64,000 nucleotides of DNA, taken from IMG/VR virus record IMGVR_UViG_3300044612_003086, positions 62,001 to 126,000 of that record. One strand, 5' to 3'. The notes below the pieces were generated by a model. The model did not search any database. It saw nothing but the letters and a program-made list of their open reading frames with translations, and was not told the origin of the DNA. The stretch is from a virus. The first letter of the stretch is position 1; each line of letters opens with the position of its first letter. This document shows, one piece after another, positions 3,793 to 32,051 of the stretch. A program made the position numbers and the translations under genes.

Positions 3793-6700
3793 AGCATTGC
3801 TCCGCTTCTAGTCACAAGGCTAGGACTTTTCTCTTTTCTCATCTCTTCAAGAAGCTTTTTGGCGTTTTCTGCAATCTCGCGCATTATTTTTTCCCTAAGG
3901 ACTGTCTCTATGTCGTCGGAGCGCTTTGCTGCTGCACTATAGCTCCTGGCATCAAAAAGATTAATTCCTTCTGGGTGAGCTATCCCTACATTATCAAAAC
4001 CAAGTTTTTTATATTCATCTTGTATTTTTTTTGCAGCTCTATAGTTTCTTAATTTTTGCATGCTTTGCGTATTCATTTTGCTTCCAGAGTTAATTGAGTA
4101 AAAATACTCAATCTCTTCTTGTGAGAATCCTGCCGAACGAAGCCGCTCAGCAATCGAGCGATTATTGACTACGTCAGAAATATCTTCTTTGCCAGAATTT
4201 TCAGATAGTCGGGAGAATGGGTAGTTGATTTTCTCAACTTCATCCTTATCAAAACCGCCAAGAATTTGTGCTTCGAATACATCCCTGTCCACCCCTTGAC
4301 CCAAGCTGCCAGGAGTTGGGAATTTGCCATCTCTATCTCTTCCACTATTTACGGAAGAGAAATCATCCGACATGCCAGCACCGAGAAGATTTAACGTTGA
4401 TACTAGATTTCTGCTTCTCGAACCTGGGCTGCTACCACCGATATAAGCATCAACGATGTCATCACGGTTCATTGAGTTTAATGCAACCGGTCTGTGGCCG
4501 GTGCTTAACGAATCACCCTTACCATATGCAACTCTGTTCGATACATTTGGCTTGAGTACAACTTCTATGTCGCCGAATGCGGTAAGTCCATCACCGACAA
4601 TATCTTCGTCCATGATTTCAAAATTTGCATCCATGTCAATATTGCCTGAATTGTTTTGCAATACTTGATTTTGTTTTGCCTTTTTATATGAATTGTGAAC
4701 AAGATATCCACTTACTGGCCTCAATTCATTTGGAATATCAGAAGATAGACCGATTGATGATTGATAGTCTTTGGCAAAATTAATTGCGGACATTCCGATT
4801 CTCTGCGAGGAAGTGGCGTCAGTATCTCCGTCCGACATTTTCCCTGTTAGGACCTGCCTGCGCGTCCTTGACAAAACCCCACGCGTACGATTGTTATTGC
4901 GTGTTTCTGAAACATTCTTCATAAATGCCCTAAACCCATCGGCAAATGAGTTTTGTAGTTTTTTTCTGTTACTCACTGGTTTTCTTGGTCCTGAGTAATC
5001 GCCAAGTTTTTCCATCGCGCGCATGGCTGTGTTTTTGTCTATCGCTCCACTTCTTTGGAGCTCCCTGACAGCGACAAGAGCCAGGTCTTGATTTCCAGCA
5101 GCAGCAATTTGGTTTGCCACCTTTGCTATATCTTCTGATGTCCCACCGTTTCCAAAGACGCTCATTGCCGCAATCGCCTGGACCATGTCTCCGCGCTCGG
5201 ATTTTTCTACTCCGGCTTTTGTTAGCGCGCTAACTGCTCTTGCATTTGCATTTCTATCGTTTCTAGCTCGGTTCGCGGCACTTGTCATGTCTCTTCCAGA
5301 GCTGAACCATGTCCTTCGCGCAGCTGCCCTACCTGTGATTTCATCAGAATCGTCTGGTAGGACTATTCTGCGATTGGAACGCAACGACTGTCTTGTGGTG
5401 ACTGCTTTTTTGTAGTCCGGACGTGCTGTGTATCCGACGGCACCAACCTTGATGAAGTCACCTCGCTCATAGAGCTCGTCGGCCATGTCTGAAATATTCG
5501 TCTTTAGGTCTTCTGCAACTTTCGCAATTTCCGAGTCGCTGATTTCAGCAATATCTCCCTTTTGCCAAGCATTTTCTGCACCAAGTCTTGCTTCTTTGAT
5601 TCCATATACTTCCTGAAAAGCTCTGCCAAGTGTAAGGCCCTCAACGATGTCGGTTTGCACTTCGTTAACATTTAGTGGAACCTGCAATTCATCACCTAAG
5701 CCAAGATTCGCTACGTTTATTCCTGCCCATCTGTGATGTCCATCCAAAATGTATTTATCCATTGTTGCGAGTATCGGCGAACTGAACCACTGCTTATTGA
5801 TTTCTTCAAGGAAGCGCCGTCTGAACTCATCGGACTTTCTATCAAGACCTTCTTGCTCTAGTTGGTCTGCGATTTCAAGTGCTTTTTTGGTTATTCCATC
5901 TGCCATGCCAGACACCTTTGATGCGACAAGCTGCTGCTGCGACGGAGCATACTCGTTTGCGGGGACTGTTTTTTTACGTACGGATGGACCAGTAGACGGG
6001 TCTTCTGGTGTAAGTGTTTCATTTAGGAATTGAATGAATTCACCCTCAAGATTCACCTCGGTGTTATTCCAATCCGTGTTCGAGTAGAACCAATTAAGTT
6101 CATCCTCTGACATTGGGTTCGATGATGGTTTGTTTTTCATTGGATGACGTTTTTTTAGGGATGCGTATCTTTCACTATCCTCAGTAGACAGTCCAGATGC
6201 AGGTTCCCATTTCCCATCGGCTTTACCATTTTTTAACATCCGTATGGCAATTGTGTTTGCGCCTTTTGTTCTTCCGTTTGTCTGGGGCATCTTTTCTCTA
6301 TCTATGCCGATATGGCCAGAACACAGCAGATTTTGCATTGCATCATAAAGCCCACATAGGTCAGCCTGGTAGCTGTCGACATAGTCTTTTTTCATTTTGT
6401 TTACAAAATCTTTTGATGAGATATCGATGCCTGGATTGTTTGAAAGCACATCAGCTTCGTATGCTTTCTTGAAGTTCAACCATCTTTCGTTATTCTGCTC
6501 AATATGGGTCAAGGCGCTTTTCTGCACTGCCTTCTCTAGCTTTGCCTGAGCGCTAGCGGTAAGTGTTAGGTCTGCATCTTTTACAATCACGTGATGGCCG
6601 AGTGACATAAGCGCCAACGCTGTCGGTACGTCTTCGGCAATGTATGTATTTCTGTGATTTGCGCTAATTGCCTTCCTTGTTGAGCGGACCAGTGATTTAC

Positions 6701-9700
6701 CAAAAACCTTTGATATCTCGTCAGTAGTCATGTCATCGACGTTTTTTCCACCAGCAACAACTTTGTCGAAAATGTCTGCCGCTTTTGCGGCTACCTCATC
6801 TTCCAGTTTCGCCCTACTTTCTAATTCCTCTACCGAGCTGATACGTCCACTAGACAGACGTCCGCGCCTGTCGTTTGGTGCCATTCTTGAAAGTCGTTCT
6901 GTTCTTCTTGAGGTGGATGGAGCACCAGGACGAACTCCGCCAGAACGAACAACCCCATTTTCCGACAACGAACTAATATCTTCGTCACGCATTCTCACTC
7001 GAACTCGTCTGTCGAAAGAACTGTGCATTTTAAATGCAGCATTTTCAATCAACTGTGCTATCTGTTCATCTGAGTACCTTCGAAGAGCTTCTGCAACATT
7101 TGAGTCGAGCATGTCTGATGCAATGTCGTCATACTCTTTTGAACCATTACCATTGAGGATTGAGCGCAGCTCACGCATATCAGACGAAAGCTGCTTTCTC
7201 CGCGAAGACCGTCTTTCCTCTCTGGAGAGAGTTGGTCCAAAATGTGTAGACCCAGAAGAAAGTCGTCTTGATGGGGCTTCGCCGAAGGTTGACCCAAAAT
7301 CTGCAACTGAATCAATTATCTCAGCGCTTGTCTCGTCTATATCTGCAGATTCTCTTTCTGTTGAGTCTGGCCTCGATATGCCGAGTTTGCTTCTTCTTAT
7401 TATTTCTTTATCGGCAACTTCTCTAATTTTCTTAGAGTTTCCCTGTCGCCATATGGCGTCATCGGTTCCAGAGCTGATTCCGTCAACAAGGGCATCAAGT
7501 ACATCAACGGTGTCTTTCTGTCTTACAATTTCAGCTCTTATCGTTCCATCTTTGTCGCGACTAATGATTCTCAGTTTCCCTGGAGGTGCGACGAACTTTT
7601 GCTCATCATCTTTTTCGGCATTTGGAAAGACTCCGCGATTTCCTTCTGCAACACTAATGATTATTTTCCTCTTTACGCGGCCCGTTTCCTTATCTGTCCC
7701 CCGAGGTGATGATGTCGGTTTAGAGCGAGATGTGAGTACACGTCCAGAAATGAAATTATCTACATTTATTTCATCCCCAACCTTTTTCCCCTTTACTTCT
7801 ACTGCTGGGAAGTCGGATACAACCTCAAATTCAAATGGCGAATCTATCGACGACGAATCAATTGCTTCCATTGTTGGGATGAGTATGTTGCGCACCTGTT
7901 CAGACAGCGAACCCTCGTCCTTGCGCCTCGGGTCTACGGCAAGGCCAAGACGGTTGAGGCGAGCATTTCTTGCATTCATCGCCCTACCTACAACAGTTTG
8001 CTTTTCCGGAGTTAACATCTGCGCTATTTCTGGGGCTACGAAATCATCCATCTCTCGGATTGCAGCAGCTTGTTCTTTGGTTATCTTTCGACGCAGGCGC
8101 GCTTTCTCTCGTTTCGCATTGTCTATAGCTTCTTTTTGCGATTTAAATTTCTTTATTTTCTTAGGTTTTGGTTTGAGTAATTCATCTACCTTGCCATTAA
8201 ACTCCCTACCGGCCCTTGCTGTTGCACGCGAATCACCACTCTCTGCAATTCGTGAAATGTATTCAGAACGGAGAATTGAGCGCTCCTCCATTAATTCTTG
8301 AACTTCCGGGTCGTCTTCTAGCCTGTCTTTAACCAGGACGTCAATATCAGCGGCACGGCGAATCAGTTGATTTTCTGATTTTGTTTTTGCTGAAGATGTT
8401 ATGTCATCAATTCTTTTTGCTTTAGCAAATGCTTTTATTTCTTCGTCATCCACCATTCCTGCATCACGTCTTGTTTTTTCGACTACCCTGTCGAATCTCG
8501 ATGCCTCACCCTTTGCTCCAACTCCGAATTTTTTCCTCCACTCAGAACGCGAATCAGAGTACATTTTCTCGTAGTAGTCAAGTATTTTTTGACCTTCTTC
8601 AATTTTCTTGCTGAGGTCAGCCACTTTCTCTGTTCGCTCTGTTATTGATTCCTCTGTTGCATCTTCTGGTAGTTCAGAAAGCCCATTGAGCTCATTCGTA
8701 AAATTATCCAGTTGTGCGCGTATGTCTCTTCTTTGGGCATCAACCAGTGCAGCTTGTTGGAACATCTCTTCTTCATCGAGTTCCGAATAGAATTTTTTAA
8801 ATTCTTTAAGTTTTTCCCGTCTTTCCTCTATTGTTCGTTTTTCAATGTCTCCGGACATTTCATCGATTTCTTCATCGGAAAGGCGGTCTGCAGAAGAGCT
8901 GGAAGTCGGCCTGAATGTAGTACTTTCCAGTATTGCTCGTTCTTCTGCATCAATATCTGCGCGCTCGGCAGAAAGCCTGCTTCGCTCAACGTCATCCATC
9001 CACTCCAATGCTGCGTCTACGTCATCTCCGAAAATAAGTCCCTGTTCGCGTAGTGCATGTAGTTCTGCACCAACCTCAAGACCCCATATTTCGCTGCCTT
9101 CTGTATATTCGGTTGGGTACTTGCCAGCAAGAAATGCAGCCACTTCACTGCGCTTTAATGCATCTGACATATTTTTCAGGTCCAAGCCATCATTGGAATC
9201 CATCATCAAATCCATAACATCACCGCTTGTTAGATTTGTCAACAATCCTCCACGCTCTTCATCGAAATCAACAGTGACAATACGGTTTCCGACAAACGTC
9301 ATCGCACCAGTTCTCTTGTCTTGTTTGTACTGAGGGATTTCAATTTTTCCGCCGTTATCGATAGCTTTGCGAAGAATTTTTTGAATGAATGCCTGGCTTT
9401 GAATTCCGTGTGAAAACTCATGAAAAGCAATATGTTTAGTAAATGACCTCGGCCCGTCTACAAGCCCTGCCATGTGGCGTGCTGCATATTCGGAATTTAT
9501 TAAGAAGTCTGCTACTGCGCTCTTCGCCTCTGAGTCACTGACAACCCCAACAGCAGATACGGCAAGTCGTTCATCTGCACGCATGTCTGGCAGCATCGAT
9601 TCCTGGTTTGTCATGATGCGCTCTAGGTTTACGTGCATTACTCCACGTATTCCACCAGCACCTGGCCTCATGCTTCCGTGAACCGCAGTTCCTGCTTCGT

Positions 9701-11182: not shown

Positions 11183-12805
11183 TTAGAGATTGTCGATTTG
11201 CTCTTCGAGCAGCTGAAACTCAACCAGTGAGGCGAGGAAGTTTGCATCATTTGGCACCTCATTCTTTTCTGAAGCACCAGCAATCCAGTTTGCTGGAATC
11301 AAGCTTTCGAGCTTCAGAGCCCGCGCCCGCTTCATGATGTGCTTCTTCGCTGCTTCTTTATCCTTGGCGCGACCAAATGCCTGAATTGCATTGCGCAAAT
11401 CAGCTTCGGTAACAATTGGGTATGAACCGTCCGGAAGAGCCATGCCTTCTTTTGCAAGGTCCATTCGTCGTTCTTCGTTGAAAGCACGCTTCAAGGCAAG
11501 CTCTGCTGCTTCTGCTTCAATTGCTTCAGCTTCATCTTGCTCGTATCTGTCGTATCCCAGAACCTCTCCATCGAGGGCAACGAAAACATCGTATGACTTC
11601 CCGTCGAATCCTTCGATTTCAACTGCGTACGAATCAAATCCTTCGAATACGTCTGGCTCAACAGCCACGACATGTCCATCGAATGATTTTACTGCGATTT
11701 CTGCAGCTTCAGTGAAGTCAATCAACTTGTACTCAGACGCCTCTGATTTTTGCTCAAATTCATTTACGTCAAGTTTGTGGAAACCCATAACTTCAGCAGT
11801 TGTTCCGTCAATGAATATTTCCTTGACATCTCCACTCTTTGTTTGCACATCAACCACAAACATGTCCGCATCTGCAGAATAGCCAGAGTCGATAACACGA
11901 CCATTGAACATCTGTTCAGCAAGTCCTTCAACATGAAGGATTCCTGGCATTCCTTTTTCCGCAATGCATCCACCTGGGCAGTCATCGCATACTGGGGCCG
12001 AGCCAGCATAAGCCTTGCGCTCCAGGGAGCAGACGTAACCTGACGCACCAATGTCCGATGGCTTTATGCCCATCGACTTAATACGTGTTTCACGGAGGGC
12101 ATCCCAGTATTCATTACCGGCATCAAAAGACTTTTCCTCAGTATCTTCTTCTTCGTCTTCGTCCATTTCTTCTTCGTCTTCTGCGCCCTCTTCGGCTTCT
12201 TCTTCCATGTCCATGTCTTCTTCTTCCATGTCCATGTCTTCTTCGTCTTCTTCGTCTTCTTCGTCTTCGTCCATTTCGTCTTCTGACATATCCATGTCTT
12301 CAGCCTTGAACTTACGGCGTCCCTTTGGACCCATTCCGTACATTTTTTCGGATTCAGAATCCATCTCTTCCTCGTCTGCGTCAGTGTCGAGGTTTTCGTC
12401 ATCTTCTTCGTCCATGTCGTCCATTTCTGGTTCGACATCTTCTTGCATCTCTGGAACCATGCGCTTTTTGGCCATTGACTCTTCTTCGTCTTCGGCCATT
12501 TCCTCGTCATCCATTTCTGCGTACATTTCTTTCATGGATGGTTTCTTCTTTTTCTTCTTGTTGCGAGAAACCATGTCCTCTGACATTTCTGGCATCATGT
12601 CTTCTGTCATATCTTCCGACATGACGCTTTTCCCATCCAATCCCGAAACTGGAACCATCTTCATTTCAACTGGTACCGCGCCGCATTTGGCGCAAATTTT
12701 TGCGCCCTTGACAAATCCGCACTCGCCAGAAGCAAGTCCTTTCGCGCACTTCAGCACGTCTCCGTCGCTGTCGATGCTGACATTAACCTTCTCGTCGTAG
12801 CTCAT
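11183..12805 (-). CDS. Acidic head-module protein with zinc-ribbon and PepSY-like segments
   Basis: 540 residues. The N-terminus has paired cysteines (CAKG...CGFVKGAKICAKCG) typical of a zinc ribbon. Residues of about 55-225 are an extreme Asp/Glu/Met low-complexity tract. A second Cys cluster follows (CSLERK...CDDCPGGC). Two PepSY-like beta-alpha units include FDGKSYDVFVALDGEVLGY. The C-terminus has DGSYPIVTEADLRNAIQAFG...HIMKRARAL...IPANW, a motif that recurs in phage head-maturation and capsid-associated proteins. The extreme acidity would suit a scaffold or DNA-mimic role, but this is inference. It lies between the two giant proteins, just downstream of the protease polyprotein. Confidence 0.6.
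   Translation of the reverse strand: MSYDEKVNVSIDSDGDVLKCAKGLASGECGFVKGAKICAKCGAVPVEMKMVPVSGLDGKSVMSEDMTEDMMPEMSEDMVSRNKKKKKKPSMKEMYAEMDDEEMAEDEEESMAKKRMVPEMQEDVEPEMDDMDEEDDENLDTDADEEEMDSESEKMYGMGPKGRRKFKAEDMDMSEDEMDEDEEDEEDEEDMDMEEEDMDMEEEAEEGAEDEEEMDEDEEEDTEEKSFDAGNEYWDALRETRIKSMGIKPSDIGASGYVCSLERKAYAGSAPVCDDCPGGCIAEKGMPGILHVEGLAEQMFNGRVIDSGYSADADMFVVDVQTKSGDVKEIFIDGTTAEVMGFHKLDVNEFEQKSEASEYKLIDFTEAAEIAVKSFDGHVVAVEPDVFEGFDSYAVEIEGFDGKSYDVFVALDGEVLGYDRYEQDEAEAIEAEAAELALKRAFNEERRMDLAKEGMALPDGSYPIVTEADLRNAIQAFGRAKDKEAAKKHIMKRARALKLESLIPANWIAGASEKNEVPNDANFLASLVEFQLLEEQIDNL
12125..12290 (-). repeat. Trinucleotide-rich low-complexity DNA coding Asp/Glu/Met
   Basis: Imperfect repeats of CTTCGT, CTTCTT and CCATGTCCATGT on the plus strand, coding DEDEE and MDMEEEDMDMEEE on the minus strand. 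The exact repeats make this stretch prone to length change and to assembly error. Confidence 0.75.
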
Positions 12806-12947: not shown

Positions 12948-15900
12948 CTATTCTTTTGTTCCTGATTTGCCGAACATGGTTCGACCTTCTTCTTGAAGTC
13001 TCTTACGTGCGTTTTCTAATTGCTCTTTACTGAAAATGTCCTCAATTGTGTGGCTTGTGCCAAATATTTCATTGAAACGATTGACCACATCCTGAAGCTC
13101 GTTGGATGAGTATCTTGGCTCATCACCCTTAATCTTGCTGAAAGTCTTGCCGCGTGTTTTTGCTGCATTGTTTAGAAGAACGGAAAGATTGCTCGTACCA
13201 AGGATGTATTCCTTATTTCTCTTGGTGTTTCCACCAGAACCCTTCTGGGTGTTTGATATGAACTCAACCATCGCCTCGGCAACATTTGCCTTGCTTGCGC
13301 GAAGTTCACCGTCAAGCTTTTGACCATTTTCTGGCCAAACGCTTTCCGCATTCTCAATCATCCCTGTCCGAATCATCTCCTGGATTGCTGCAACTGGCAC
13401 TCCGTCACTTTCCCATGACTTCCTGTCTTTCGGATTGGTCAAACCGACATCATCCATCCCGAATGACCGCTTCATTCTTTCTCTTAGCTGAGCCATCCAT
13501 TCGTCTCTGTCAAGACCAAGATTTTCGATGAGATTATCCAACTTGAAATCTCTTCTTGATGTCTTTGCGCCAGCTGGGTTTGTTTCATTGACCGTCGGTG
13601 CTGGTGCTTCTGGAACAAAGTCTGGCATTCCCTCGTAAATAAGGTCAGCCTCGGCAGAAGCTTCGCCATCAGCGTCTTCTGGGTTTGGCGTAAATCTTCC
13701 AGTTGCCCTAAATTTTGCCACTGGGTCGACTTCTCCAAGAGTGGAGTATTCATCTGAAGAAATGATTTGATTTTCTTCCCTGTCGGCCCAGAACGGATAT
13801 GCGTCTTTCCCAAATGTTTCAATGATGAATCTGTCGCGCATATTGGCTCTACCGAGATTTTCGGCAAAACGTTGAGCTGACGACATCTTCTCCACGCCCG
13901 GCTCGTCTGAAGTTACTGGCGAGAACAATCTCCATCCACCAAATTCAGGTCTATTGCCGAGTTCTGCAACGAGGAATCTGACGGCATTGTGGGATATTCC
14001 AGAATCATCATCAGAAATCCTCTTTGCATCCTCTGGCGATAAATTTAGCAATCTTGAAAGGTCGGTGTTGGAAATTGGTTCCGACTTGGTCCACTTTACA
14101 TCAGCAATTGTGTTGTCTGGATTTCTGACAACATCAAACTCTGTTGGAATTCTGATTGATTCCTTCAGGCTCTTTACTGGAAGCATCCATGTATCTGCAT
14201 CTGGATTCGAAAGATTTTCATTCCCAGATACGCGACCGATAGTTACTTGTGGTCGACGCTTCATTGCGGCGGCAGCCTTATCCAGGCCCTCATTTATCTG
14301 TCGTCTGCGCTCTTTTACTGTTCCGGACTTACTTGACGTATCTAGCGTTATTCCGCGTTTTCTAAAACCATCCCAGAATCTTCTGGCAAACGCGAATGAC
14401 TCTCCAGTCTTTGAGCCTCTAATTGCAGCAAGATTTGTAGCATTGATATTGTCCGCATAAGTGGACCCGCTACTCATTCTTCGTGCTTTTCTGTCAGCGC
14501 GATTTGAACTGTTTACTGAACGTGGCCCACCAACTGCTGCTGTCCGTTCTGGCGCTTGGACTCCTGGCGTTTCTGGTGCTGAGGTTTCTGTAGTGGCCTG
14601 TCGCTCAACATCTCCGCCACGAAGTCTTGCTCGTCTTGCCGACCTGTTGGTCCCAGTTCCTGGAACTGCTGTTTCAGGTACGCTATTTACGCGACCGCTT
14701 GAAAGTATCTCTCTTGCGCCATCAGGGAATACTTGCTCACCATCTCCAAATGGGTTCCAAAATCCAGAAGGAGCCTGCTGCTCCTCGGTTAGGAACTTTT
14801 CAATATATTCAAAACCCTTTGGATTTTTCTTTGGGTCGATAATCCATGACGTTGCCTCAGACAACTGAATGCGCTTTTTTGCGCGAGTCATCATGACGTA
14901 AATAAGGTTTTCCATTTCACGACTTATGTCATTCCCTGGAAGTATCGAACCATCGTCTTCAAACTTTGGCTGGAAGAAATCGTCTCCGGCAACCACGTTG
15001 TCGAATTCCAAACCTTTGGCTGCGTGTGTTGTTAAGAACGATGCATCAACTTCTGGCTCGTTTGCTGAGTCAGTTATCATTCTTCCAACAAGGCTGAGGA
15101 GCAATCCAGTCTCTTCTGGATTATCTCCCTTTATTCTTACAGCGTCATATGCTGGTGCATTCGATGAGCCAGCCTTACGTGGTACGTACTGCTTTTCTAT
15201 TGTGACTTTTCCTTCCAGATTGAGGTCTTTAATCATTTTCTCAATCCGGCGTCGCATCATAGGCTTTTCGCCGTTCTTGTCACCTGTGTACTGAATTTTT
15301 CCTGCTGCGTCCCTGAACTGGTAGACATCAATTATTCCTTCACCGGAAATAATTACTCCATTCTCCCATTTCCCATCTGCACCAAGACTTTCGGTATCCA
15401 GTTTCCAGAAAACTTCTCTGCTTGGTGTCTGGCCGGTTGGGTTCGGGATGATGTTAAATCGCTTATCACGATTCATCTTGTACGCACCCTTGGCTCCACC
15501 GCCGCCTTTACCTGCTTTTTGTTTTCCGAGAGCAATTAGTTCCTCACCAGAAACCGTCGAAGAACTTCCATCTATATTCTTGAATGGGTCAACATCGAGT
15601 GGTTCTTCTATTTCTCGTATTCTTGCTCTAGTTAAGACCTCGCCAGTTTGTGGGTCCCTTCGACCTAGCAATCTGTTTAGCCAGTCAAGTGGGGAAAGTT
15701 GATTTCCTTCTGCGTCTCGAACCTGCAAAAGCTTGAGCATTGAACCCAGTTGACCATAGGATGATTTTTGACCTGCGCGTTTTCTGATTTCCTCCATTGT
15801 CCACGCATTGCCAATAATCTTTGATTCGCGTGGTCGTGTCCCAACAGGACGGAGGACAAACTGATAGTGGCGTAGGAATTCAACCATGTCTCTGTATTTT

Positions 15901-18900
15901 TCGGCAGGCAATCCAACGATTTTGTCTGGATGCGCTCCGATGAATTCCAAGGCAGCTGTAAGGGTGTTTTTGTTTGAATAAGAAATATATGCCCACGTAC
16001 CATCTGCGCTTGTTGGTATCTGACGGTAGAGGATTCCTTCCGATTCTGGAACGATGTAACCACGAGCCTTGTCCAGTAGCTCATTTCTCTCTTTTTCTGG
16101 CATATCTGCCAGTGACTGTCCGTCTGGACCAGAAATTCCGTATTTCTTTTGTATTGAATCAAGTTTCTTACGCAAATCATTTCCGGTGAGTGTTCCAAGA
16201 TTGAAGTCATGAGAAACCACATCCTGAAGTCGGCCAAACAACTTGTAGTCCGCAGAAACCTCATCAATCCCATTCTGCCTGTCGGTCATGTTTCCACGAC
16301 CAAGCATCAAGTTTCCAAGGAACGCAACTGTCTTTCCGTATCTGAATGAGTCAGTCAACGTCAAGTTGAAATCTGGATTGAGTCGAGCGAATGAGTCAGA
16401 TGAACCACGGAATCCATAAATTGATTGCCGTGGGTCACCGACCATGACTATTGCAAGATTATTATTCGCAATATTGTCTTCAATCACCTTTTGGAGAACT
16501 GGGTTTACGTCCTGAGCTTCGTCAAAGAAGAAAGTCGAAATGGGCTTATCTTCCGTTGCATATCGGCGACGCAATCCGGCGCGTGCTCCACCACCTGTGT
16601 AGACATAATCCACACCATCAACTTGGACTATTGAGCCTGGGTCAAGTTTTTTGTCCTGTGCTCTTGCATCTTTCACTTTTCTTGTGCCGTGACCAACCAT
16701 TCCAGCGTCTGTACGCAGATTTGGTTTTTGCATAGCCCAAATCTTTACTTGCTGGTCGTAGTTGGGCAGCACATTGCTCTTCGGGTCGAGCGTGTCAGAC
16801 CACATTTTGAGTGCTAGGTCAACCCACTCTTGTGGTATCTGGTCGAATGCTGTTTCGGCAGGGTCGATTGGGTCGCCAGACTCGGCAAGTTGCTTATTTC
16901 TTTCAATTTCGTGTGGACGAAGCTTGAAATGTTTTTCACTAAGCGCATCATCATCACTCTGTGAATAACGAGTAAGGGCGTTGATGAGAACAAGACCATA
17001 ATCGTCAGCAGTCAGCTCCACCCCTTCGTGGGTAAGTCCGTCTGGGTATTTCGTGCCGAAATCGTAGTGTCTCGCTACGTCGCGACCACCGCTTTCTGTT
17101 TCAAACGAAACGTATCCCAAAGTTCTGAATCCAGCTTTTTTCAATCCTGTTGTATCGACAGTTTTTCCACCATATCCCTCTGCAGACGTTTGTCTTGTTG
17201 ATTTAGGGTTTGCTGATGAGTAGTACTCGTTGCCGGCGCCAATGCCTATCTTTTTTAGTTTCTCTTTGAACTCTGGAGAAATTCCTGGCCTGTCTTCGAG
17301 CAATAGGGACCAGTATGCCAATTGGTTAATCGAAGAGCTTCCTGTGTTGTCAGGCATTCTACGTGCTGCTTCTGCAGCATTTTTCTTATTGAATGTTATG
17401 TAATAAAACTGTGACTCCGGAGATTCCTTGGCCATACGAATAACAGATTGTTCAACTGTGGTGGTTTTACCTGCTCCGGCTCCTGCGCGAACAGCAGCCA
17501 ATCCACCTTCACCAGTTTTTGTGAAGTGTGCAACTGTATCCATAACGTCTTTTTGTTCATCAGTCGGCTCAAACTTCATTCCAAACATTTCCATGAACGA
17601 ACCCTCAGTTCGCTCAATCTTGCGCTTAGGGTCCTTGGCGCCAACAATTGGTCCGCGGCCAGAAGAAAGACGCTTGTTAATTTGGTTATACGTGTTGCCT
17701 TCTTCGTCCTTGATAACGAATCCGGTTATGCCGCTTGAAAGACGATTATTCTCGTAGTCCTCAAGGATAGTTTTTACTGCAGATGGACCTTGTCCACGAA
17801 CACGCACGCGTTGACGTACTTTGTTTTCTGGTGTTGGTGTGCCGACAACTGGCTTTTTCTTTGGAATTGGGATAGTGATTCGACCAACGATTGGCGCTTC
17901 AATTGTGTAGTCTTCTTTACCCTTGCGTTCGCTGTCTGGAACACCAGCGCGCTTGCGCAGCGTTGCTGACTTATTCATAATGTAGTCAACAGCCTGCTGT
18001 CCGCCTTCAATTGCACGACGGATTGAGCTTGGGTCGTCCTGCAGTGCTTTGCGCCAGAACGCTAGGTACTGAATATGGTCTTCGCGTATTTGAGGCTCTA
18101 CACCGAGGAATCCCATCGCAAATGAAGCACCGATTTCTGCGATGAGTTCTTCAAATGCGTATTTCTTTCTCTGTTCTGGGGTGCCCTTCATTCTGCCGCT
18201 TAGGTCTCTCTTTAGTCGCGATGGATGGGCTGTCCAGTGAATAATTTCATGCAGAACTGTTCCATAGAAAGCAATTGGTTCAATAAAGTTCTCAAATGGA
18301 GGAACATTTATCGTGTCGTCGTTTGGGTCGTAGAATGCGCTGACTCCCTGTTCCTTGTATCTAGGACCAATTTCTTTGATTACATTTTCAATGTCTTCAA
18401 GTCGTTGTGCCGCATCAAGTTTTTCTGTTTCTTTGACTTCGTAGACCCATGCTGGCAGTCCGTCCATTTGGTCGGCGTTGAATACTGTTTCAATTTTGAA
18501 ACCTTTTTCACCAGTACGAATTCCGTCATCATTTTTTATGTCAAACGGAACGAGGATATTGACACCAATTTCTCCTGGTTTTGGTTTTGCTTTCTTATTC
18601 AACTCACGCCACTGCGAACGTCCAGCCCAACGATTTGTTTTGTATTTGCGCTTTGATGCGACCTGGGAAAGAATCAATTGATTCATGCCTTGATAAATAC
18701 GATTTCTTCTTGTTGGATTTCGACCGTACAACTCTGGCGAGCGCCAAGGCACTTGCCACTGGCCAGCTTTGCTTGGGTCCTTTAATATCTCATCAAGCGC
18801 AGCAATAATTGCTTCACCCATTTGCTGGTACATGTCTTTAATACGAGCTGCATCTGCTTCTTGATTTTCATCTTTTCCAGATGACAGTGTCTGGCCATCC

Positions 18901-21812
18901 CTGTATTCCCAGAGTGGTCCTAAGTAGTCTTGCTTTTCACGACGAGTGCGCTTGTTTTCTGGCTTTTTTAGGAAATTCTCAAATCCACTAGAAAGTCTTG
19001 GCGCGCTCTCGGCAGCACGCGATGCACTGCCTCTTCGAATCTCGGACATGTATCTTTGTTCTGCCTGGCGCACCTCCGTTCTTGTTACACCAAGTTTTTT
19101 GGCCATATCCTCAATGGATACGCCATTCATACGCTCTTCGTAAATATCCTGGTCTGTATAGTCTTCTGGGTTCTTTTCTGGTGGAGCGATTTTCCCTCGT
19201 TTTGGACGTGGCATTTCTTCGCCGAGGAAATCTCTAATAATTCTGTCGTATGTATCAGTTCCGCTCTCATCGAATGGAAGGTTGTCGTCGCCGTAGGGAT
19301 TATCTGGGTCGAAATCGTCATCGAGCGCAGGAAGTCTTCCGGATGAGAGTTTTCTATCTGGCTTGTTTGGGCTTGCACCGTCGAACCCATATGAGTTCAT
19401 CCAGCGAGCAAGAGTCTCTTTATCGTTTGGGTCCCATGTTCCAGTTGACGGGCGACGCTCATAGACTTCGCTGCGTAGCGCACTATCAAGTCCTTTAAGA
19501 AACTGGCTCTCGCCGTCTTCGCCAACATAATTTTTATTCTTGTCCTTTTTGTCTTTTCCGGCAAAATACTTATTTGTTGCATCGAGGTATGTGCCTAGTG
19601 TGCGAACAAAATCGTAATACCACTCTTGATACGCCTGTCCGCTCTTTGCTTTTTCGTTGAATTTTGCTGGGCGCTTCTTATCGTCGCCTTGCCATGCTCT
19701 TCTTGCTTGGTTGTACCCAAGCTCGCGCCCTCTTAAGAACTCTGCGGAACGTGTATTGTCTGTTTGGTAGCGAGGCACTTCTTCCCAGCCGAAGCCCTTA
19801 TCAACCCATTCCTGTGCAGTCTTGTCAAATGCTTCTCGTCTTGCCTGTTCATCTGGTGCGACACCAAACTTACTCTCGGTTTCTTTTCCAAGACCGTGAC
19901 GTGAAGTATTAAATCGTGAGCGTTTCTCAGCTCCAGAAGAGAAGGGTTTTGACGGTGTTGCCGGTTTTGCATCTTGCACGCCGACGAAGCGGGGTCGTGT
20001 TGTTCCTTCATCTACCCAGCCATCGTTGTCGGGGTCGAAGTCGCTCCCCGTTGGTCGTCGATTTCCTGGTGTTCCGCCGGTTGGCATGTCAATGTCGCCA
20101 CGGCGATTTCTTCTGTCTCGACGGCCACCGATTGATGGTCTGTCAATGAGTCTGCTGCCAACGTAGCTTCCTAGTCTTCGGCCAATCGCTTTTGACTCAA
20201 ACTCAGAGCTATCTAGAAATTTTTTTTTTATGTTTTCCAGAGCGTTATCGACTGCTTCAATAAAATCTAAACTAACCCCGGATTTGAGAACGATTCCATC
20301 AATATCCACTTCTGCATCAACCATGTAGTAATCGAGAATTGGGTCAATTTCTTGCTTGACACGGAACGCGTCATTTGGGTGAAGCGGAATGCAGTATTGC
20401 TCATCGAATGAGTTGTCATCTTTGCCAAATTCAGAAAGTGATTTAAATTTGCTACGCTTCTTTTTTCTCTTACCTACCGCTCCGCGAAGCATGGCCATGA
20501 CAAACTCGCCAGGGTACTTAACTTCTAGGTCTTCAATAGCTTCATCGAAATTTGCGTCTTCTTCAATTTCGTATTCCTTTTTAGCAATTCCATCGACATT
20601 GACAACGCCTTTTGGAATTACTGCAAAACGACATTTGCCTTCTGGTTCGATGTCCATATCAACAATCTTGCATGACCCATCATTTTGGAAGAACACGCAA
20701 TTTGCACACTTGACCCCGATTGATGCGATGGGATTTTCTGAAGCCGGTTTATATCCAGCCCACACACCATCTTTGTCTTCGTTGAACTTGCCGTGGCGTT
20801 TTACAATTTTTAGCAAAGCGTCACGCAGGTCCGCTTCCTCTTTATCGAGGTTGTTCTTATCTATTGGCTTGTTATTGCCCTCTTCGTACTGAACTGCAGG
20901 GAGCGGAACAACAACAACACCCTCCATGCCTGGCTTGACAGCTATTGGCATTGATGGCATCTGCTGTGGGCGGACCATTCTTCTTGGCTCATTTGGCGGA
21001 ACCATCATTGGTGCTGTTTGTGGTGCGGACGGTCTCTGCATCACTATTTCTTCTGGCGGGCCGAACATCATTCGACCACCCGTTCGACTCCAGCCACACT
21101 TGAATCTCTTAACTGAACCGTCAGCCACACGACGAGCAAATGTCAGATTTTCGTCGTCCATTTCCATGAGCGATATTTTTGCGCCAAGCATTCCTGAGAG
21201 TTGCTTTTCAATTTCCAACTTGTTCGGCTTTTCATCATCCATCATCATTACGGAGCTATCTTCGCCGTATGGGTCATCTGTCTTCACGGAAATTGTGCCA
21301 GTCAGTTGATTGGCTCCATGAAGAACTGGAGACACTTCATAAAGCTCCAACTCGTAGATTACGTTTGCCTGAGACTTTTGGTCATACTGTGCGCGCAGGG
21401 TTTTATATCCAATCGACCATTCTTGTTCTTCTCCAAAGAAAGCAACCATCGTGAAAGCTTCGCGGCCCTTTTCTGACTGAAGATTAAATTGAACTTTTGC
21501 AAATAATCCGCCGATTCCAGCAATCTTCATTTTTAGTGGTAGGCGTGGGTCAGACGGTGGCACCTCGTAAATTTCGAGTACTTTGCCGATTGGGTCATTC
21601 CAGTTATGGCCCCACACAACACGCGGCTTGCGGCGCTGAAGACTCTTCGTAAAAGCACCACTTGCGCAAATATCACCAACAGAGTCTTTATTGCCGATTC
21701 CAGCTACAAAGCACTCAACAATTCCTTGCATCTCATCGAGATTGACGGAGCCGGCTTTCTGTGAAGCGGAGCCAAGGGATGTCGACTTGTATTCAAAGTG
21801 GTCAGTGGTCAT
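12948..21812 (-). CDS. Prohead protease - HTH - ArdC/metallopeptidase - UvrD helicase polyprotein
   Basis: 2954 residues in one frame. Residues 1-190 are an HK97-type prohead protease: GHNWNDP near 67 (His), EEQEWSIGY near 130 (Ser), and YEVSPVLHGAN near 165. Then follow a Cys cluster (CANCVFF...C...GKCRF, 374-394), an Asp-rich turn DPDNDGWVDEG near 596, a helix-turn-helix (VSIEDMAKKLGVTRTEV) near 904, and an ArdC-like N-domain at about 990-1100 with a zincin motif HEIIH near 1187 and a following EELIAEIGA. A UvrD/Rep helicase spans about 1400-2340: Walker A AGAGAGKTT near 1444, FFFDEAQD near 1762, GDPRQSIYGFRG, THAAKGLEFD near 2260 and a final VMMTRAKKR. A 500-residue unassigned C-terminal part follows. 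LSSG-type motifs lie at the domain borders. Normal prohead proteases are about 200 residues. It follows the portal, as expected for the protease. Confidence 0.85.
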   Translation of the reverse strand: MTTDHFEYKSTSLGSASQKAGSVNLDEMQGIVECFVAGIGNKDSVGDICASGAFTKSLQRRKPRVVWGHNWNDPIGKVLEIYEVPPSDPRLPLKMKIAGIGGLFAKVQFNLQSEKGREAFTMVAFFGEEQEWSIGYKTLRAQYDQKSQANVIYELELYEVSPVLHGANQLTGTISVKTDDPYGEDSSVMMMDDEKPNKLEIEKQLSGMLGAKISLMEMDDENLTFARRVADGSVKRFKCGWSRTGGRMMFGPPEEIVMQRPSAPQTAPMMVPPNEPRRMVRPQQMPSMPIAVKPGMEGVVVVPLPAVQYEEGNNKPIDKNNLDKEEADLRDALLKIVKRHGKFNEDKDGVWAGYKPASENPIASIGVKCANCVFFQNDGSCKIVDMDIEPEGKCRFAVIPKGVVNVDGIAKKEYEIEEDANFDEAIEDLEVKYPGEFVMAMLRGAVGKRKKKRSKFKSLSEFGKDDNSFDEQYCIPLHPNDAFRVKQEIDPILDYYMVDAEVDIDGIVLKSGVSLDFIEAVDNALENIKKKFLDSSEFESKAIGRRLGSYVGSRLIDRPSIGGRRDRRNRRGDIDMPTGGTPGNRRPTGSDFDPDNDGWVDEGTTRPRFVGVQDAKPATPSKPFSSGAEKRSRFNTSRHGLGKETESKFGVAPDEQARREAFDKTAQEWVDKGFGWEEVPRYQTDNTRSAEFLRGRELGYNQARRAWQGDDKKRPAKFNEKAKSGQAYQEWYYDFVRTLGTYLDATNKYFAGKDKKDKNKNYVGEDGESQFLKGLDSALRSEVYERRPSTGTWDPNDKETLARWMNSYGFDGASPNKPDRKLSSGRLPALDDDFDPDNPYGDDNLPFDESGTDTYDRIIRDFLGEEMPRPKRGKIAPPEKNPEDYTDQDIYEERMNGVSIEDMAKKLGVTRTEVRQAEQRYMSEIRRGSASRAAESAPRLSSGFENFLKKPENKRTRREKQDYLGPLWEYRDGQTLSSGKDENQEADAARIKDMYQQMGEAIIAALDEILKDPSKAGQWQVPWRSPELYGRNPTRRNRIYQGMNQLILSQVASKRKYKTNRWAGRSQWRELNKKAKPKPGEIGVNILVPFDIKNDDGIRTGEKGFKIETVFNADQMDGLPAWVYEVKETEKLDAAQRLEDIENVIKEIGPRYKEQGVSAFYDPNDDTINVPPFENFIEPIAFYGTVLHEIIHWTAHPSRLKRDLSGRMKGTPEQRKKYAFEELIAEIGASFAMGFLGVEPQIREDHIQYLAFWRKALQDDPSSIRRAIEGGQQAVDYIMNKSATLRKRAGVPDSERKGKEDYTIEAPIVGRITIPIPKKKPVVGTPTPENKVRQRVRVRGQGPSAVKTILEDYENNRLSSGITGFVIKDEEGNTYNQINKRLSSGRGPIVGAKDPKRKIERTEGSFMEMFGMKFEPTDEQKDVMDTVAHFTKTGEGGLAAVRAGAGAGKTTTVEQSVIRMAKESPESQFYYITFNKKNAAEAARRMPDNTGSSSINQLAYWSLLLEDRPGISPEFKEKLKKIGIGAGNEYYSSANPKSTRQTSAEGYGGKTVDTTGLKKAGFRTLGYVSFETESGGRDVARHYDFGTKYPDGLTHEGVELTADDYGLVLINALTRYSQSDDDALSEKHFKLRPHEIERNKQLAESGDPIDPAETAFDQIPQEWVDLALKMWSDTLDPKSNVLPNYDQQVKIWAMQKPNLRTDAGMVGHGTRKVKDARAQDKKLDPGSIVQVDGVDYVYTGGGARAGLRRRYATEDKPISTFFFDEAQDVNPVLQKVIEDNIANNNLAIVMVGDPRQSIYGFRGSSDSFARLNPDFNLTLTDSFRYGKTVAFLGNLMLGRGNMTDRQNGIDEVSADYKLFGRLQDVVSHDFNLGTLTGNDLRKKLDSIQKKYGISGPDGQSLADMPEKERNELLDKARGYIVPESEGILYRQIPTSADGTWAYISYSNKNTLTAALEFIGAHPDKIVGLPAEKYRDMVEFLRHYQFVLRPVGTRPRESKIIGNAWTMEEIRKRAGQKSSYGQLGSMLKLLQVRDAEGNQLSPLDWLNRLLGRRDPQTGEVLTRARIREIEEPLDVDPFKNIDGSSSTVSGEELIALGKQKAGKGGGGAKGAYKMNRDKRFNIIPNPTGQTPSREVFWKLDTESLGADGKWENGVIISGEGIIDVYQFRDAAGKIQYTGDKNGEKPMMRRRIEKMIKDLNLEGKVTIEKQYVPRKAGSSNAPAYDAVRIKGDNPEETGLLLSLVGRMITDSANEPEVDASFLTTHAAKGLEFDNVVAGDDFFQPKFEDDGSILPGNDISREMENLIYVMMTRAKKRIQLSEATSWIIDPKKNPKGFEYIEKFLTEEQQAPSGFWNPFGDGEQVFPDGAREILSSGRVNSVPETAVPGTGTNRSARRARLRGGDVERQATTETSAPETPGVQAPERTAAVGGPRSVNSSNRADRKARRMSSGSTYADNINATNLAAIRGSKTGESFAFARRFWDGFRKRGITLDTSSKSGTVKERRRQINEGLDKAAAAMKRRPQVTIGRVSGNENLSNPDADTWMLPVKSLKESIRIPTEFDVVRNPDNTIADVKWTKSEPISNTDLSRLLNLSPEDAKRISDDDSGISHNAVRFLVAELGNRPEFGGWRLFSPVTSDEPGVEKMSSAQRFAENLGRANMRDRFIIETFGKDAYPFWADREENQIISSDEYSTLGEVDPVAKFRATGRFTPNPEDADGEASAEADLIYEGMPDFVPEAPAPTVNETNPAGAKTSRRDFKLDNLIENLGLDRDEWMAQLRERMKRSFGMDDVGLTNPKDRKSWESDGVPVAAIQEMIRTGMIENAESVWPENGQKLDGELRASKANVAEAMVEFISNTQKGSGGNTKRNKEYILGTSNLSVLLNNAAKTRGKTFSKIKGDEPRYSSNELQDVVNRFNEIFGTSHTIEDIFSKEQLENARKRLQEEGRTMFGKSGTKE
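14466..19943 (-). other. LSSG motif series in the polyprotein (putative processing sites)
   Basis: [L/M]SSG codons occur at 19349-19338 (residue 822, KLSSGR), 18995-18984 (940, RLSSGF), 18887-18876 (976, TLSSGK), 17741-17730 (1358, RLSSGI), 17669-17658 (1382, RLSSGR), 14705-14694 (2370, ILSSGR) and 14477-14466 (2446, RMSSGS). A related FSSGA lies at 19943-19932 (624). They separate the protease part, the HTH part, the ArdC/zincin part, the helicase and the C-terminal part, and lie in low-complexity linkers. Codons differ between copies, so the conservation is at the protein level. Cleavage is inferred. Confidence 0.6.
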
Positions 21813-21918: not shown

Positions 21919-23985
21919 TTAGAACTGAGCGAAGTTCCAGGCTCGGCGTGTCTCTTCTTCAGCAATTTCGACATGTTCTTTTGCAAGAAGATTTGCATAC
22001 ATTTCAATTAGCTCTTGTCTGAAGGATGAAAATCTTCGCTCTTCGTCAGAATAAACAAACGATTTAAGCATTATTTCATTGATATTAAAGGCTGTCTGCT
22101 CATTTATTTTTTTGATATTTGCAACGTGTGAATCAACAGCTCTCAAGAAATCTAGAGGCGGTATAGCTCTTGGCGACAAACCCTTTACATGCATTCTTTC
22201 GCGTTTTGATTCATGCGAGTCATTGATAATCGCGGAAACAACTGGCTTTAGGTCATCTTCAAATTGCTTATTCCATGAGTCAATCGAGAGTATTGAATCG
22301 ATGTCAAGCGTTCCAGCCATGAGCCCTTTTCTTGCCTTGCTTCCACCAGACTTTTCCAGTACAACTCGTTGCTGTCTTTCCAGAATTCTCTCAATTCCTC
22401 GTGAAAGTATTTCCGACCAACGCTCAATTGAAGTTTCTGTTCTGTCTTCGACAGCTGGCTCAGCTGATTTGTACTGCATCTCGCCGCTTTCTGCGGTGAG
22501 CGCTCCAGGCGGAGTTGGTGCAGCTCCAGTTTGCAATGCGGCTGCTTCTGGCGGGAGTGTACTTTGAGCAAGCTCGCCTGTTTGTGCAACCTCGGCCATT
22601 GCGCCCTGCATCGTGTTCGGGTCAAGGGGGATGTTTTCCATCGGTGGGGCCTGACCTGGCATTGGCGGCATTCCAGGAATTGGTGGCATACCGGGAGCTC
22701 CAGGCATACCTGGGGCTGCACCAGGGACCATTGCAGCGTTCTCGTCCATCTTCTTCTTTGTATTCGCAATCGGAATTAAGTTTGGATTAGCGAGGAGTGA
22801 GTCAGCAAGGTCGGACTCAACTTCTTTTCTTGAGGAACCAATTCGGTATTCGTTTCCGCTTATCAATCCAGCCTGAAACTCTGTAAGCAAATATCTATCG
22901 CGCTCTTGCTTGTACAACTGAAGAATTGGAACTTCGCTCGTATCGAAGTCGACATAGTTTTTATCGTCCAACTCATCAAGTGCTCGCGCAATCGGTTCTA
23001 GGTGCGGCAACATTGTTTCCATCCAGAAGACACGTATTTCTTCCGCAGCATTGCTGAATGTTCTTCCAGCTGCGTTTCCTATTACTGATTCCGGCACACC
23101 GAATGCAGCAAGAATTTCTTCTTTCGTAACTTGGCGCATCTGGATATACGCGGCATCGCGCGGGCTCGCTGATGTGTCAACAAAATCAACGCCATCGTCT
23201 GCTGCGATTACTGTTGTATGTCCAGTCTTGGATAGGTTGCCACGGAACCTGCTCTTTAATTCTTCTTTATCGTCTTCATCTATTTCTCCACGGACTACAA
23301 GCAAGCCGCCAGGACGGCCGTCATTAAGGAGATAGTTTCTGTTGTAGAGCTTCGCAAGATTTTCAATTTCAATAGCTACACCAGCAGCCTCGAGCGGAGT
23401 AAGTGACAGATATGGGTCAAGTGGGTGTGGACGGCGAATCCAGCAAACATCTTCTGGCTTAAGTATTACCTTTTCTCCGTAGGGCATGGCAACTTCATAG
23501 CCGGAAACAAATGTTTTCGGATGAGGGATTGGCGCCGTTGCCTGTGGTGGTAGAAGATTAAGGGCGATTATTCCGCCGTCTCTTCCGCGTATTTTCTCAA
23601 TAAATGCTCCGCGCGTACCAAGAAGAAGCTGTGCAGAAAGCCTATATCTAAAGATAAAACTATTTTCCCCAACGTTGGCTCTTGTGTTTAGTAGCTCGAG
23701 CAACGTGGAGCGATTTGCTTCTTTACCAACTATTATCTCGCCCTTGTTGGAATTATCTTTTCGAAGAATCACTGGCAGTCGTGCCTGATTACCGGCAATT
23801 GCATCAATACACCTGTTTACCCAGGTGATTTTGGACATGCCCTCGCGATATGCGCGTTCAATGTCCCATGAATCTCGATATGGTTTATGTACAAGACCTG
23901 GGTTTGCCGAAATTGGTGCACCAAAGGCAATCTGCTTTGAGTCAGACGACTTGAGTGATTTATCTTTTGGAGAGTTCCAGCCCAT
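21919..23985 (-). CDS. Portal protein, HK97 type, with C-terminal extension
   Basis: 688 residues. Forms the dodecameric ring at the capsid vertex through which DNA is packaged and ejected. The first 400 residues follow the HK97 portal layout: ITWVNRCIDAIAGNQARLPV, the LLLGTRGAFIEKI strand, DPYLSLTPLEAAG, then FGVPESVIGNAA and EIRVFWMETMLPHLEPI. A Pro/Met/Gly-rich linker (MPGAPGMPPIPGMPPMPG) at about 415-450 joins a helical C-terminal extension (ERILERQQRVVLEKSGG) that resembles portal-fused head proteins. It is the gene next to the terminase, divergently oriented, and directly upstream of the protease polyprotein, as in standard head modules. Confidence 0.9.
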   Translation of the reverse strand: MGWNSPKDKSLKSSDSKQIAFGAPISANPGLVHKPYRDSWDIERAYREGMSKITWVNRCIDAIAGNQARLPVILRKDNSNKGEIIVGKEANRSTLLELLNTRANVGENSFIFRYRLSAQLLLGTRGAFIEKIRGRDGGIIALNLLPPQATAPIPHPKTFVSGYEVAMPYGEKVILKPEDVCWIRRPHPLDPYLSLTPLEAAGVAIEIENLAKLYNRNYLLNDGRPGGLLVVRGEIDEDDKEELKSRFRGNLSKTGHTTVIAADDGVDFVDTSASPRDAAYIQMRQVTKEEILAAFGVPESVIGNAAGRTFSNAAEEIRVFWMETMLPHLEPIARALDELDDKNYVDFDTSEVPILQLYKQERDRYLLTEFQAGLISGNEYRIGSSRKEVESDLADSLLANPNLIPIANTKKKMDENAAMVPGAAPGMPGAPGMPPIPGMPPMPGQAPPMENIPLDPNTMQGAMAEVAQTGELAQSTLPPEAAALQTGAAPTPPGALTAESGEMQYKSAEPAVEDRTETSIERWSEILSRGIERILERQQRVVLEKSGGSKARKGLMAGTLDIDSILSIDSWNKQFEDDLKPVVSAIINDSHESKRERMHVKGLSPRAIPPLDFLRAVDSHVANIKKINEQTAFNINEIMLKSFVYSDEERRFSSFRQELIEMYANLLAKEHVEIAEEETRRAWNFAQF

Positions 23986-24255: not shown

Positions 24256-25569
24256 ATGACACAAAAACCGAATTGGGCTGAAGTTCTCGAATATCTGCAA
24301 CCCAAGATGCCTCCCTTCTGCCCAGAAGAGCCATCAATAAACCAAAGAGTTTTTTTAAGAACTAATTCAATAGAAGCCCTATTTGGTGGTGCAGCAGGTG
24401 GTGGAAAGTCAAGCGCTTTGCTAATGGCTGCTCTCCAGTATGTAGATGTGCCTGGGTATTCGGCCATTCTTTTCCGTAGAACTTTCGCTGACCTTTCGCT
24501 TCCCGGAGCCCTGATGGACCGCTTTAAGTCCTGGATGTCCAACTACGATGATGTGCATTGGAATGCAAATAGCTTCATCGCCACTTTCCCATCTGGCGCC
24601 CGCATTTCATTCGGGTATCTAAATAATGCCAATGACTATTTACGCTATAAAGGCTCGGAATTTCAGTTCATTGGAATGGACGAAGTAACCGAAATCCGTG
24701 AATCTGATTATCGATACCTATTCTCCCGTTTGCGTCGCCCTGCGAGCGGACCAATTTCTCAAGTGCCATTAAGAATGCGTTCAGCATCAAACCCTGCTCC
24801 CAACTGGGTTAGACAGAGATTCATTGTTGAGGGTCGTCAGGAAAACCGCATTTTCGTTCCATCTAAGTTGACCGACAACCCAGGAATTGACGCTGAATCG
24901 TACCGACAGGCCCTTGCTGCACTTGACCCCGTGGAAAGACGTCGCCTAGAAATGGGCGACTGGTGGTCGACAACGCTCGGAACTCTTTTTGAAAGAACTT
25001 CATTTATTATTATCGACCCAGAAGAAATCCCTGAAATCAAAAGTTCTGCCCGTGTTGTTAGATTTTGGGACCTTGCTGCCACCGAACCATCCCAGAGCAA
25101 CCCGAATCCAGACTATACGGTCGGAACGTTGATGATGTTTGACGGCGGTGTTGCCTACATTCTGGATGTAAAACGAGCACGAGTAAAAGGTGAAAAAGTA
25201 GAGCAGCTGATTGCCCAGACAGCTCAGGAAGATGGTCTGGGAGTATCAATACGAATGGAACAAGAACCAGGTTCGTCGGGTAAAGCACTTGCCGACCAAT
25301 ATGCCAGGTATGTGGTTCCTGGGTACGATTTTGGGGCAATACGTTCTACTGGAGACAAAGAAACTCGCGCACGGCCATTCGCCGCCGCTGCAGCCAACGG
25401 AAATGTACGTATTATTCGTGCACCTTGGCTGACTGCATGGATGGATGAATTTTCATCTTTCCCCGAAGCCTGCGACCACGACGACCAGGTCGACTCAGCT
25501 GTCGGAGCATTTACGTTTTTAACTGGCCTGGGGTTGCCACAGAGAAAGCGTGTCTCTATACTGATTTAG
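24256..25569 (+). CDS. terL: Terminase large subunit
   Basis: 437 residues. ATP-driven DNA packaging motor and headful/cos nuclease. The Walker A motif is GGAAGGGKSS near residue 40, and the Walker B region is FIGMDEVTE near 138. The C-terminal RNase H-like nuclease begins with RFWDLAAT near 262 and ends with DHDDQVDSAVGA near 412, giving the acidic metal ligands. Length is normal for the family. The first gene of the plus-strand block, divergent from the portal. No small terminase subunit was recognised nearby; the 167-residue gene that follows has no visible DNA-binding motif. Confidence 0.95.
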   Translation: MTQKPNWAEVLEYLQPKMPPFCPEEPSINQRVFLRTNSIEALFGGAAGGGKSSALLMAALQYVDVPGYSAILFRRTFADLSLPGALMDRFKSWMSNYDDVHWNANSFIATFPSGARISFGYLNNANDYLRYKGSEFQFIGMDEVTEIRESDYRYLFSRLRRPASGPISQVPLRMRSASNPAPNWVRQRFIVEGRQENRIFVPSKLTDNPGIDAESYRQALAALDPVERRRLEMGDWWSTTLGTLFERTSFIIIDPEEIPEIKSSARVVRFWDLAATEPSQSNPNPDYTVGTLMMFDGGVAYILDVKRARVKGEKVEQLIAQTAQEDGLGVSIRMEQEPGSSGKALADQYARYVVPGYDFGAIRSTGDKETRARPFAAAAANGNVRIIRAPWLTAWMDEFSSFPEACDHDDQVDSAVGAFTFLTGLGLPQRKRVSILI

Positions 25570-32042: not shown

Positions 32043-32051
32043 TAGTTAATA

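Follow-up and report, generated by a model that had tools for sequence, protein, structure and literature searches.

The window analysed here (64,000 nucleotides; positions 62001-126000 of an IMG/VR record of 133,891 bases) holds one open frame that joins a prohead protease, an ArdC domain and a UvrD-type helicase, and thus raises the question of whether this 2954-residue chain is an artefact, a single giant protein or the source of several products. As set out below, the evidence, read from the sequence, points to a precursor that would be cut between its modules.

The frame, its domains and its relatives

The gene, hereafter P1 (12948..21812, minus strand, as are all P1 features below), starts with ATG and its translation from the window runs through 2954 residues with no internal stop, so the intact single frame reported in a preliminary description stands. 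It is flanked on one side by the portal protein gene (21919..23985, minus) and on the other by that of an acidic 540-aa protein (11183..12805, minus), a candidate scaffold whose C-terminus, compared by eye, is similar to the tail seen in protease proteins from cultured relatives; the terminase large subunit is encoded on the opposite strand (24256..25569, plus). Elsewhere in the window, at 31194-33741, a phosphoadenosine phosphosulfate reductase-like gene is flanked by two ParB-like genes, with a RuvC-like gene nearby, possibly forming a DNA modification cluster.

The protease, the ArdC domain with its HEIIH motif and the full SF1 helicase assigned in the same description were all recovered by profile searches, and ArdC by a structure search as well. 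The S78 prohead protease domain (aa 20-222, 21147..21755) matches PF04586 (2.3e-9, 38 bits against a cut-off of 21) and phrog_80 (1e-25), and the positions of its catalytic His and Ser are invariant in an alignment of 25. ArdC, comprising ArdC-N and an MPTase-PolyVal zincin (aa 991-1285 by Pfam/PHROGs; phrog_7245, 4e-57), carries HEIIHW at position 1188; its aa 993-1289 (17946..18836) match residues 8-295 of the R388 ArdC structure 6sna over nearly the full length (3e-33), and Foldseek relates the segment to ArdC at 6e-15 (TMt 0.75-0.78). The UvrD-type SF1 helicase (aa 1399-2325, 14838..17618) was assigned by Pfam and PHROGs, with PF00580 in its N-terminal part (2e-16, 60.8 bits), PF13361 in its C-terminal part (29.7 against a cut-off of 25.6) and the Walker A motif AGAGAGKT; PADLOC matches to GajB were discarded, as they reflect the common UvrD helicase fold only. 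The helix-turn-helix that had also been placed in the chain is represented by one weak match (phrog_351, E 0.048). Besides these domains, P1 contains a header (aa 537-619, 19956..20204; FESKAIGRRL...DPDNDGWVDEGTTRPRF) with 71% identity to the N-terminal header of another giant protein, P3, and a C-terminal module, G (aa 2449-2954, 12951..14468), conserved in 11 genomes. A structure model of aa 1-640 had a mean pLDDT of 48 and was left out of use. A DxDSDGxxxDGT motif resembling the header is also seen in a 471-aa protein with proline-rich repeats (PGQKPSPSKPRDQKPADRYP), encoded next to the capsid gene (L018:1093-2508, minus).

Copies matching P1 occur in 13 viral contigs and cover the whole frame in nine of them, eight at 99-100% identity and one (L006) at 80%, the other four running off the end of their contig. 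Among viral contigs, 540 stretches are related to the protease domain, and relatives were drawn from the best 80 of about 540 matches per query; among the matches listed, at least 26 non-redundant long relatives have S78, ArdC and helicase in this order within a single frame. The HExxHW zincin motif is intact in every long P1 protein examined, and in two P1 proteins (L073, L078) a second Walker A (ALAGTGKT) marks an additional helicase-like cassette. The fusion is split in two relatives (L066, L086), both at the same place. Another (L075) has a break elsewhere than at the run of adenines discussed below, probably a local error, and carries that run out of frame through this earlier break. Domains in separate genes, which had been named as evidence against the proposed delivery polyprotein, were found only in the distant cultured phages Cantare, GMA6 and ChisanaKitsune, which have the protease in a gene of its own and in which no ArdC/UvrD fusion was seen, and not within the clade.

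A tetrapeptide between the modules of three giant proteins

The modules of P1 are separated by a tetrapeptide, L-S-S-G (also LASG or M/FSSG), often preceded by R or K. Counting forms with L, F or M first, P1 has eight: FSSG at aa 624-627 (19932..19943); LSSG at aa 822-825 (19338..19349), 940-943 (18984..18995), 976-979 (18876..18887, directly ahead of ArdC), 1358-1361 (17730..17741), 1382-1385 (17658..17669, ahead of the helicase) and 2370-2373 (14694..14705); and MSSG at aa 2446-2449 (14466..14477). Two companion giants share it. P2 (3789..11165, minus; 2458 aa, with a zincin-like HEFSH motif) has three separators, LSSG at aa 1302-1305 (7251..7262, minus) and 1437-1440 (6846..6857, minus) and FSSG at aa 1954-1957 (5295..5306, minus), and P3, encoded outside the window (genome 37854-44471, minus; L016:18854-19000 plus L017:1-6471; 2205 aa), has seven, all LSSG. 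P3 opens with the header common to P1 and contains DnaQ-like exonuclease and HEWGHW modules. Homologs of P2 and P3 were found in 11 of the 11 relatives searched, and the separator, in its L or F form, occurs in those of all ten relatives available in full and of G000.

Among 4-mers, LSSG shows the strongest over-representation in P1, P2 and P3 taken together (15 observed against 0.22 expected), whereas its count in the window's other listed ORFs is close to the chance level (1 against 0.53). Across 31 relatives, LSSG was observed 162 times against 1.8 expected, LASG 21 against 2.2, MSSG 6 against 0.5 and FSSG 6 against 0.9, most other one-letter variants being near chance. The separator codons are mixed (97 different 12-mers at 137 sites), which argues for selection on the peptide and rules out a DNA-level repeat or recombination site as the source of the motif. 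In terms of placement, only 4 of 191 separators fall within the ArdC and helicase envelopes, against 90 expected; three of these four belong to L073/L078, in which a second helicase Walker A is present, and L089 has a separator motif inside a domain at aa 2146. The separator ahead of ArdC is near-invariant in 25 relatives, though across that region most of them show only 34-45% identity; of the four separators in the modelled stretch, three are predicted to lie in low-pLDDT linkers. A peptide recurring between modules and avoided within them is what a processed polyprotein would be expected to display in its sequence. In the divergent relative L158, the separators are mostly GLSSG.

Cutting P3 at the motif yields modules of fairly steady length whose order differs between phages: B-U-C-O-x-J-E-P in G000, B-C-E-M-J-O-S-a-T in G007 and B-O-x-C-T-N-E-K-K-U-M-d-x in G009, the letters being approximate, as they come from single-linkage BLAST clustering and some P3 are cut at the fetched boundary. 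Module C is a DnaQ-type exonuclease (PF00929, 5e-10), located in P2 in G006; module V is an ADP-ribosyltransferase (PF03496, 2e-7), module M has a weak GNAT match and module E carries an HE(W/Y)GHW motif. Ends of P3 homology blocks lie within 15 aa of a motif in 62% of cases, against 17% under a shifted null with a maximum of 35% in 500 trials.

The flavour of the motif also drifts jointly in the three giants. FSSG predominates in all three in G023 (4/4, 3/3, and 9 F against 5 L), and in G007 and G012 the residue ahead of the motif is mostly S in the three giants, whereas R or K is common elsewhere. Agreement of the motif within genomes exceeds that of shuffled genomes (p 0.004 and 0.02, in a test that ignores shared ancestry), and the change to FSSG is a single event on the tree. 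This is the pattern that one trans-acting reader with a drifting taste would leave.

Predicted slippage and cutting of the giants

A reading that would account for these features, and that we consider on balance the probable one, is that P1 encodes a virion-precursor polyprotein. On a run of ten adenines located between protease and cargo (20220..20229; T10 on the plus strand), slippage by either RNA polymerase or the ribosome would let the gene yield both a free prohead protease of about 533 aa and the fusion of protease, header, ArdC, helicase and C-terminal module. The fusion would enter the procapsid together with P2 and P3, perhaps via the header common to P1 and P3. There, S78 during head maturation or, less likely, another phage protease would cut in trans at L-[S/A]-S-G, probably as LSS|G. 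ArdC and the helicase would be released from P1, and a DnaQ-like exonuclease and a zincin-like protein from P3, joined in relatives by ADP-ribosyltransferase and acetyltransferase modules; the freed enzymes would be ejected with the DNA, protecting and processing it in the new host. The protease-headed polyprotein of the preliminary description is thus strengthened and extended by the inter-module motif, the shuffling of cassettes and the two companion giants, but the chain as a functional unit gives way to a cut precursor and a protease made by slippage. Polyvalent proteins (Iyer et al., 2017; PMC5512222) offer an analogy that makes delivery into a new host, as proposed in that description, plausible.

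The identity of the cutting enzyme is the point at which a rival fares best. Either while the particle is assembled or once the proteins have been injected, the separators may instead be cut by zincins, namely the MPTase of P1 or the zincin-like modules of each giant, S78 being confined to head maturation of the K|S type, the cut known from HK97. The capsid protein has the pattern L[ST]S..E[IV]K. A capsid delta-domain site of the same motif was at first attractive, but it failed the covariation check: L-[ST]-S at the end of the delta domain is retained even in the FSSG lineage, so that the L-to-F switch of the separators is not mirrored there and specificity of S78 for LSSG lacks covariation support. 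No change private to the FSSG lineage is seen in the S78 core (aa 23-178), and the likeliest HK97-type cut of the capsid protein is EIK|SIG. These observations favour a zincin, as do the HExxHW motif preserved in all long P1 proteins examined, the zincin-like HExxH motifs of P2 and P3, and the proposal, in the polyvalent-protein study, that MPTases of this kind are autoproteases (PMC5512222). Against it, a single drifting specificity would need to be common to three different zincin-like modules, and R388 ArdC, which has the same domain, is transferred at full length according to that same study (PMC5512222). Moreover, the P3-x-P1 geometry, like that of the A-X-E| cut of SPN3US gp245 (PMC10052503), suggests LSS|G as the site and a cutter of the assemblin clan, and S78 is part of the P1 chain itself. 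A comparison of S78 and zincin at residue level has the single tree event of the L-to-F switch to draw on. Taken together, we consider S78 about twice as likely as the zincin to be the cutter, and zincin-processed polyproteins remain doubtful, although they are the strongest of the alternatives.

The predicted slippage itself has been weighed against the A10 run being a chance or structural feature with no recoding, the full fusion then being the sole product. Homopolymers are prone to sequencing error, and KKK is required at the site anyway; synonymous shuffles of P1 produce an A10 anywhere in 19% of cases and at this site in 2.4% (one genome). Since A10 is not rare under synonymous shuffling, the weight rests on conserved place and phase. 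Nearly all relatives (37 rows) have a run of A9-A11, mostly A10, at the protease-cargo junction; L158 misses it at the usual place and L146 is too short or has no run. None of the 19 P1 ORFs checked has another run of nine or more adenines, and the window has no other homopolymer of ten. The phase of the run is fixed: it begins at the third base of a codon, with five different codons, all ending in A (ATA, TTA, CTA, GTA, ACA), in that place, although P1 uses the two lysine codons evenly (AAA 110, AAG 109). Stops follow in both other frames after 7 and 5 codons in G000 and after 4-9 codons throughout the relatives. The stand-alone protease ORFs of L066 and L086, at first sight assembly errors, break at an A9 run and read as the protease alone. 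Long run, fixed phase, nearby stops in both frames and conservation reproduce the layout of Thermus dnaX, in which slippage yields a short product (PMC5009743). We therefore take A10 to be a likely slippage site that yields a stand-alone protease besides the fusion, and its absence of function to be unlikely; the predicted short product would end just ahead of the header that also begins P3. As the run is conserved and likely to recode, a single DNA frame need not mean a single product.

Unlikely, too, is that the separator is a binding tag borne by linkers (for a scaffold, the capsid wall or the portal), with the giants packed and ejected whole. A recurrent binding motif in linkers would leave much of the same pattern, its location and co-drift fitting a common binding partner as well, and the virion RNA polymerase of N4 is packaged unprocessed, as stated in the polyvalent-protein study (PMC5512222). 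However, the motif occurs about once per module boundary, its four-residue core is strict and arranged in a P3-x-P1-like geometry, and the ends of modules are tied to it, which speaks against such a tag. Finally, an assembly join or sequencing error of neighbouring genes, for which the common place of the split in L066 and L086 might be invoked, is practically excluded by the 13 contigs with matching copies and the 26 non-redundant relatives with the fused frame.

Known systems and cultured relatives

P1 combines several disparate conflict and DNA domains in one phage chain with the hub domains ArdC-N and MPTase, which places it among the polyvalent proteins; these are likewise multi-domain chains of portal-terminase phages with ArdC-N, zincin MPTase, UvrD helicase and ART or GNAT domains, and the authors who described them compared them with viral polyproteins whose parts are set free by embedded peptidases (Iyer et al., 2017; PMC5512222). 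In those proteins the assemblin-like peptidase is "always" C-terminal, whereas it is N-terminal in P1 of all relatives examined; an explicit separator peptide, co-drift in several giants and a slippage site do not appear in the passages of that paper that were consulted. The head proteins of SPN3US/phiKZ and the internal proteins of T4 resemble the proposed model in having a capsid protease, a short P3-x-P1 motif on several head proteins and ejected cargo (PMC10052503); there, cutting serves mostly to trim propeptides off the products of separate genes, in contrast to the release of whole enzymes from three polyproteins that we propose. The likeness to Thermus dnaX extends to a slippage site within a single long frame, stops close by in the two other frames, and a short and a long product (PMC5009743), but the slippage predicted in P1 would divide a phage head protease from a cargo extension. 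A literature search covering mostly journals outside subscription found no paper on the separator motif or such a phage polyprotein, and both the separator code and the slippage site appear undescribed so far.

In retroviruses, recoding sets the ratio of the short Gag and long Gag-Pol products, after which a protease cuts between modules. P1-type chains, from a little-known phage group, resemble such a polyprotein in a DNA phage, although there is no homology, the P1 protease is in the short product and the virus is a dsDNA phage. That they are a full counterpart, with the ratio set by A10 slippage, one protease of drifting taste acting on the L-x-S-G of three giants, and swappable cassettes loaded into the head, is an idea to which we give somewhat less than even credence. 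If the proposed model holds, a sequence-defined processing code would be available for phage polyvalent proteins, the payload enzymes of a large group of uncultured phages could be read from sequence by cutting at the motif, cassette boundaries would point to new anti-defence proteins, and retrovirus-like control of product ratio via slippage would become testable in tailed phages.

By capsid and portal protein, the closest cultured relatives are the Gordonia phages GMA6, ChisanaKitsune and DalanDe and the Brevibacterium phage Cantare. Inspection of their head genes revealed no recurrent LSSG; unlike in P1, their protease adjoins the capsid gene and the cargo is in separate genes with a different header. 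A Cantare-type protease used as query found two loci only. The capsid maturation protease of DalanDe (1633 aa; L111:16425-21326) has a long cargo-like region N-terminal to the protease, a fusion that looks independent of P1. Streptomyces phage Gilgamesh encodes a 4624-aa hypothetical protein, gp48, between portal and protease genes (L096:11979-25853); considered as a cultured carrier of the motif, it was rejected, having no over-represented tetrapeptide of the LSSG kind. The head cargo proteins (ART, HNH, zincin) of GMA6, Cantare, ChisanaKitsune and DalanDe (L094, L095, L110, L111) share an N-terminal module, [LI]-E-x-K ... VR(T/D)xExxx(Y/W)GxP(I/Y)G, with a similar LFETK at the portal N-termini; judged by its sequence, the module has the look of a header for capsid targeting that includes a prohead-protease site.
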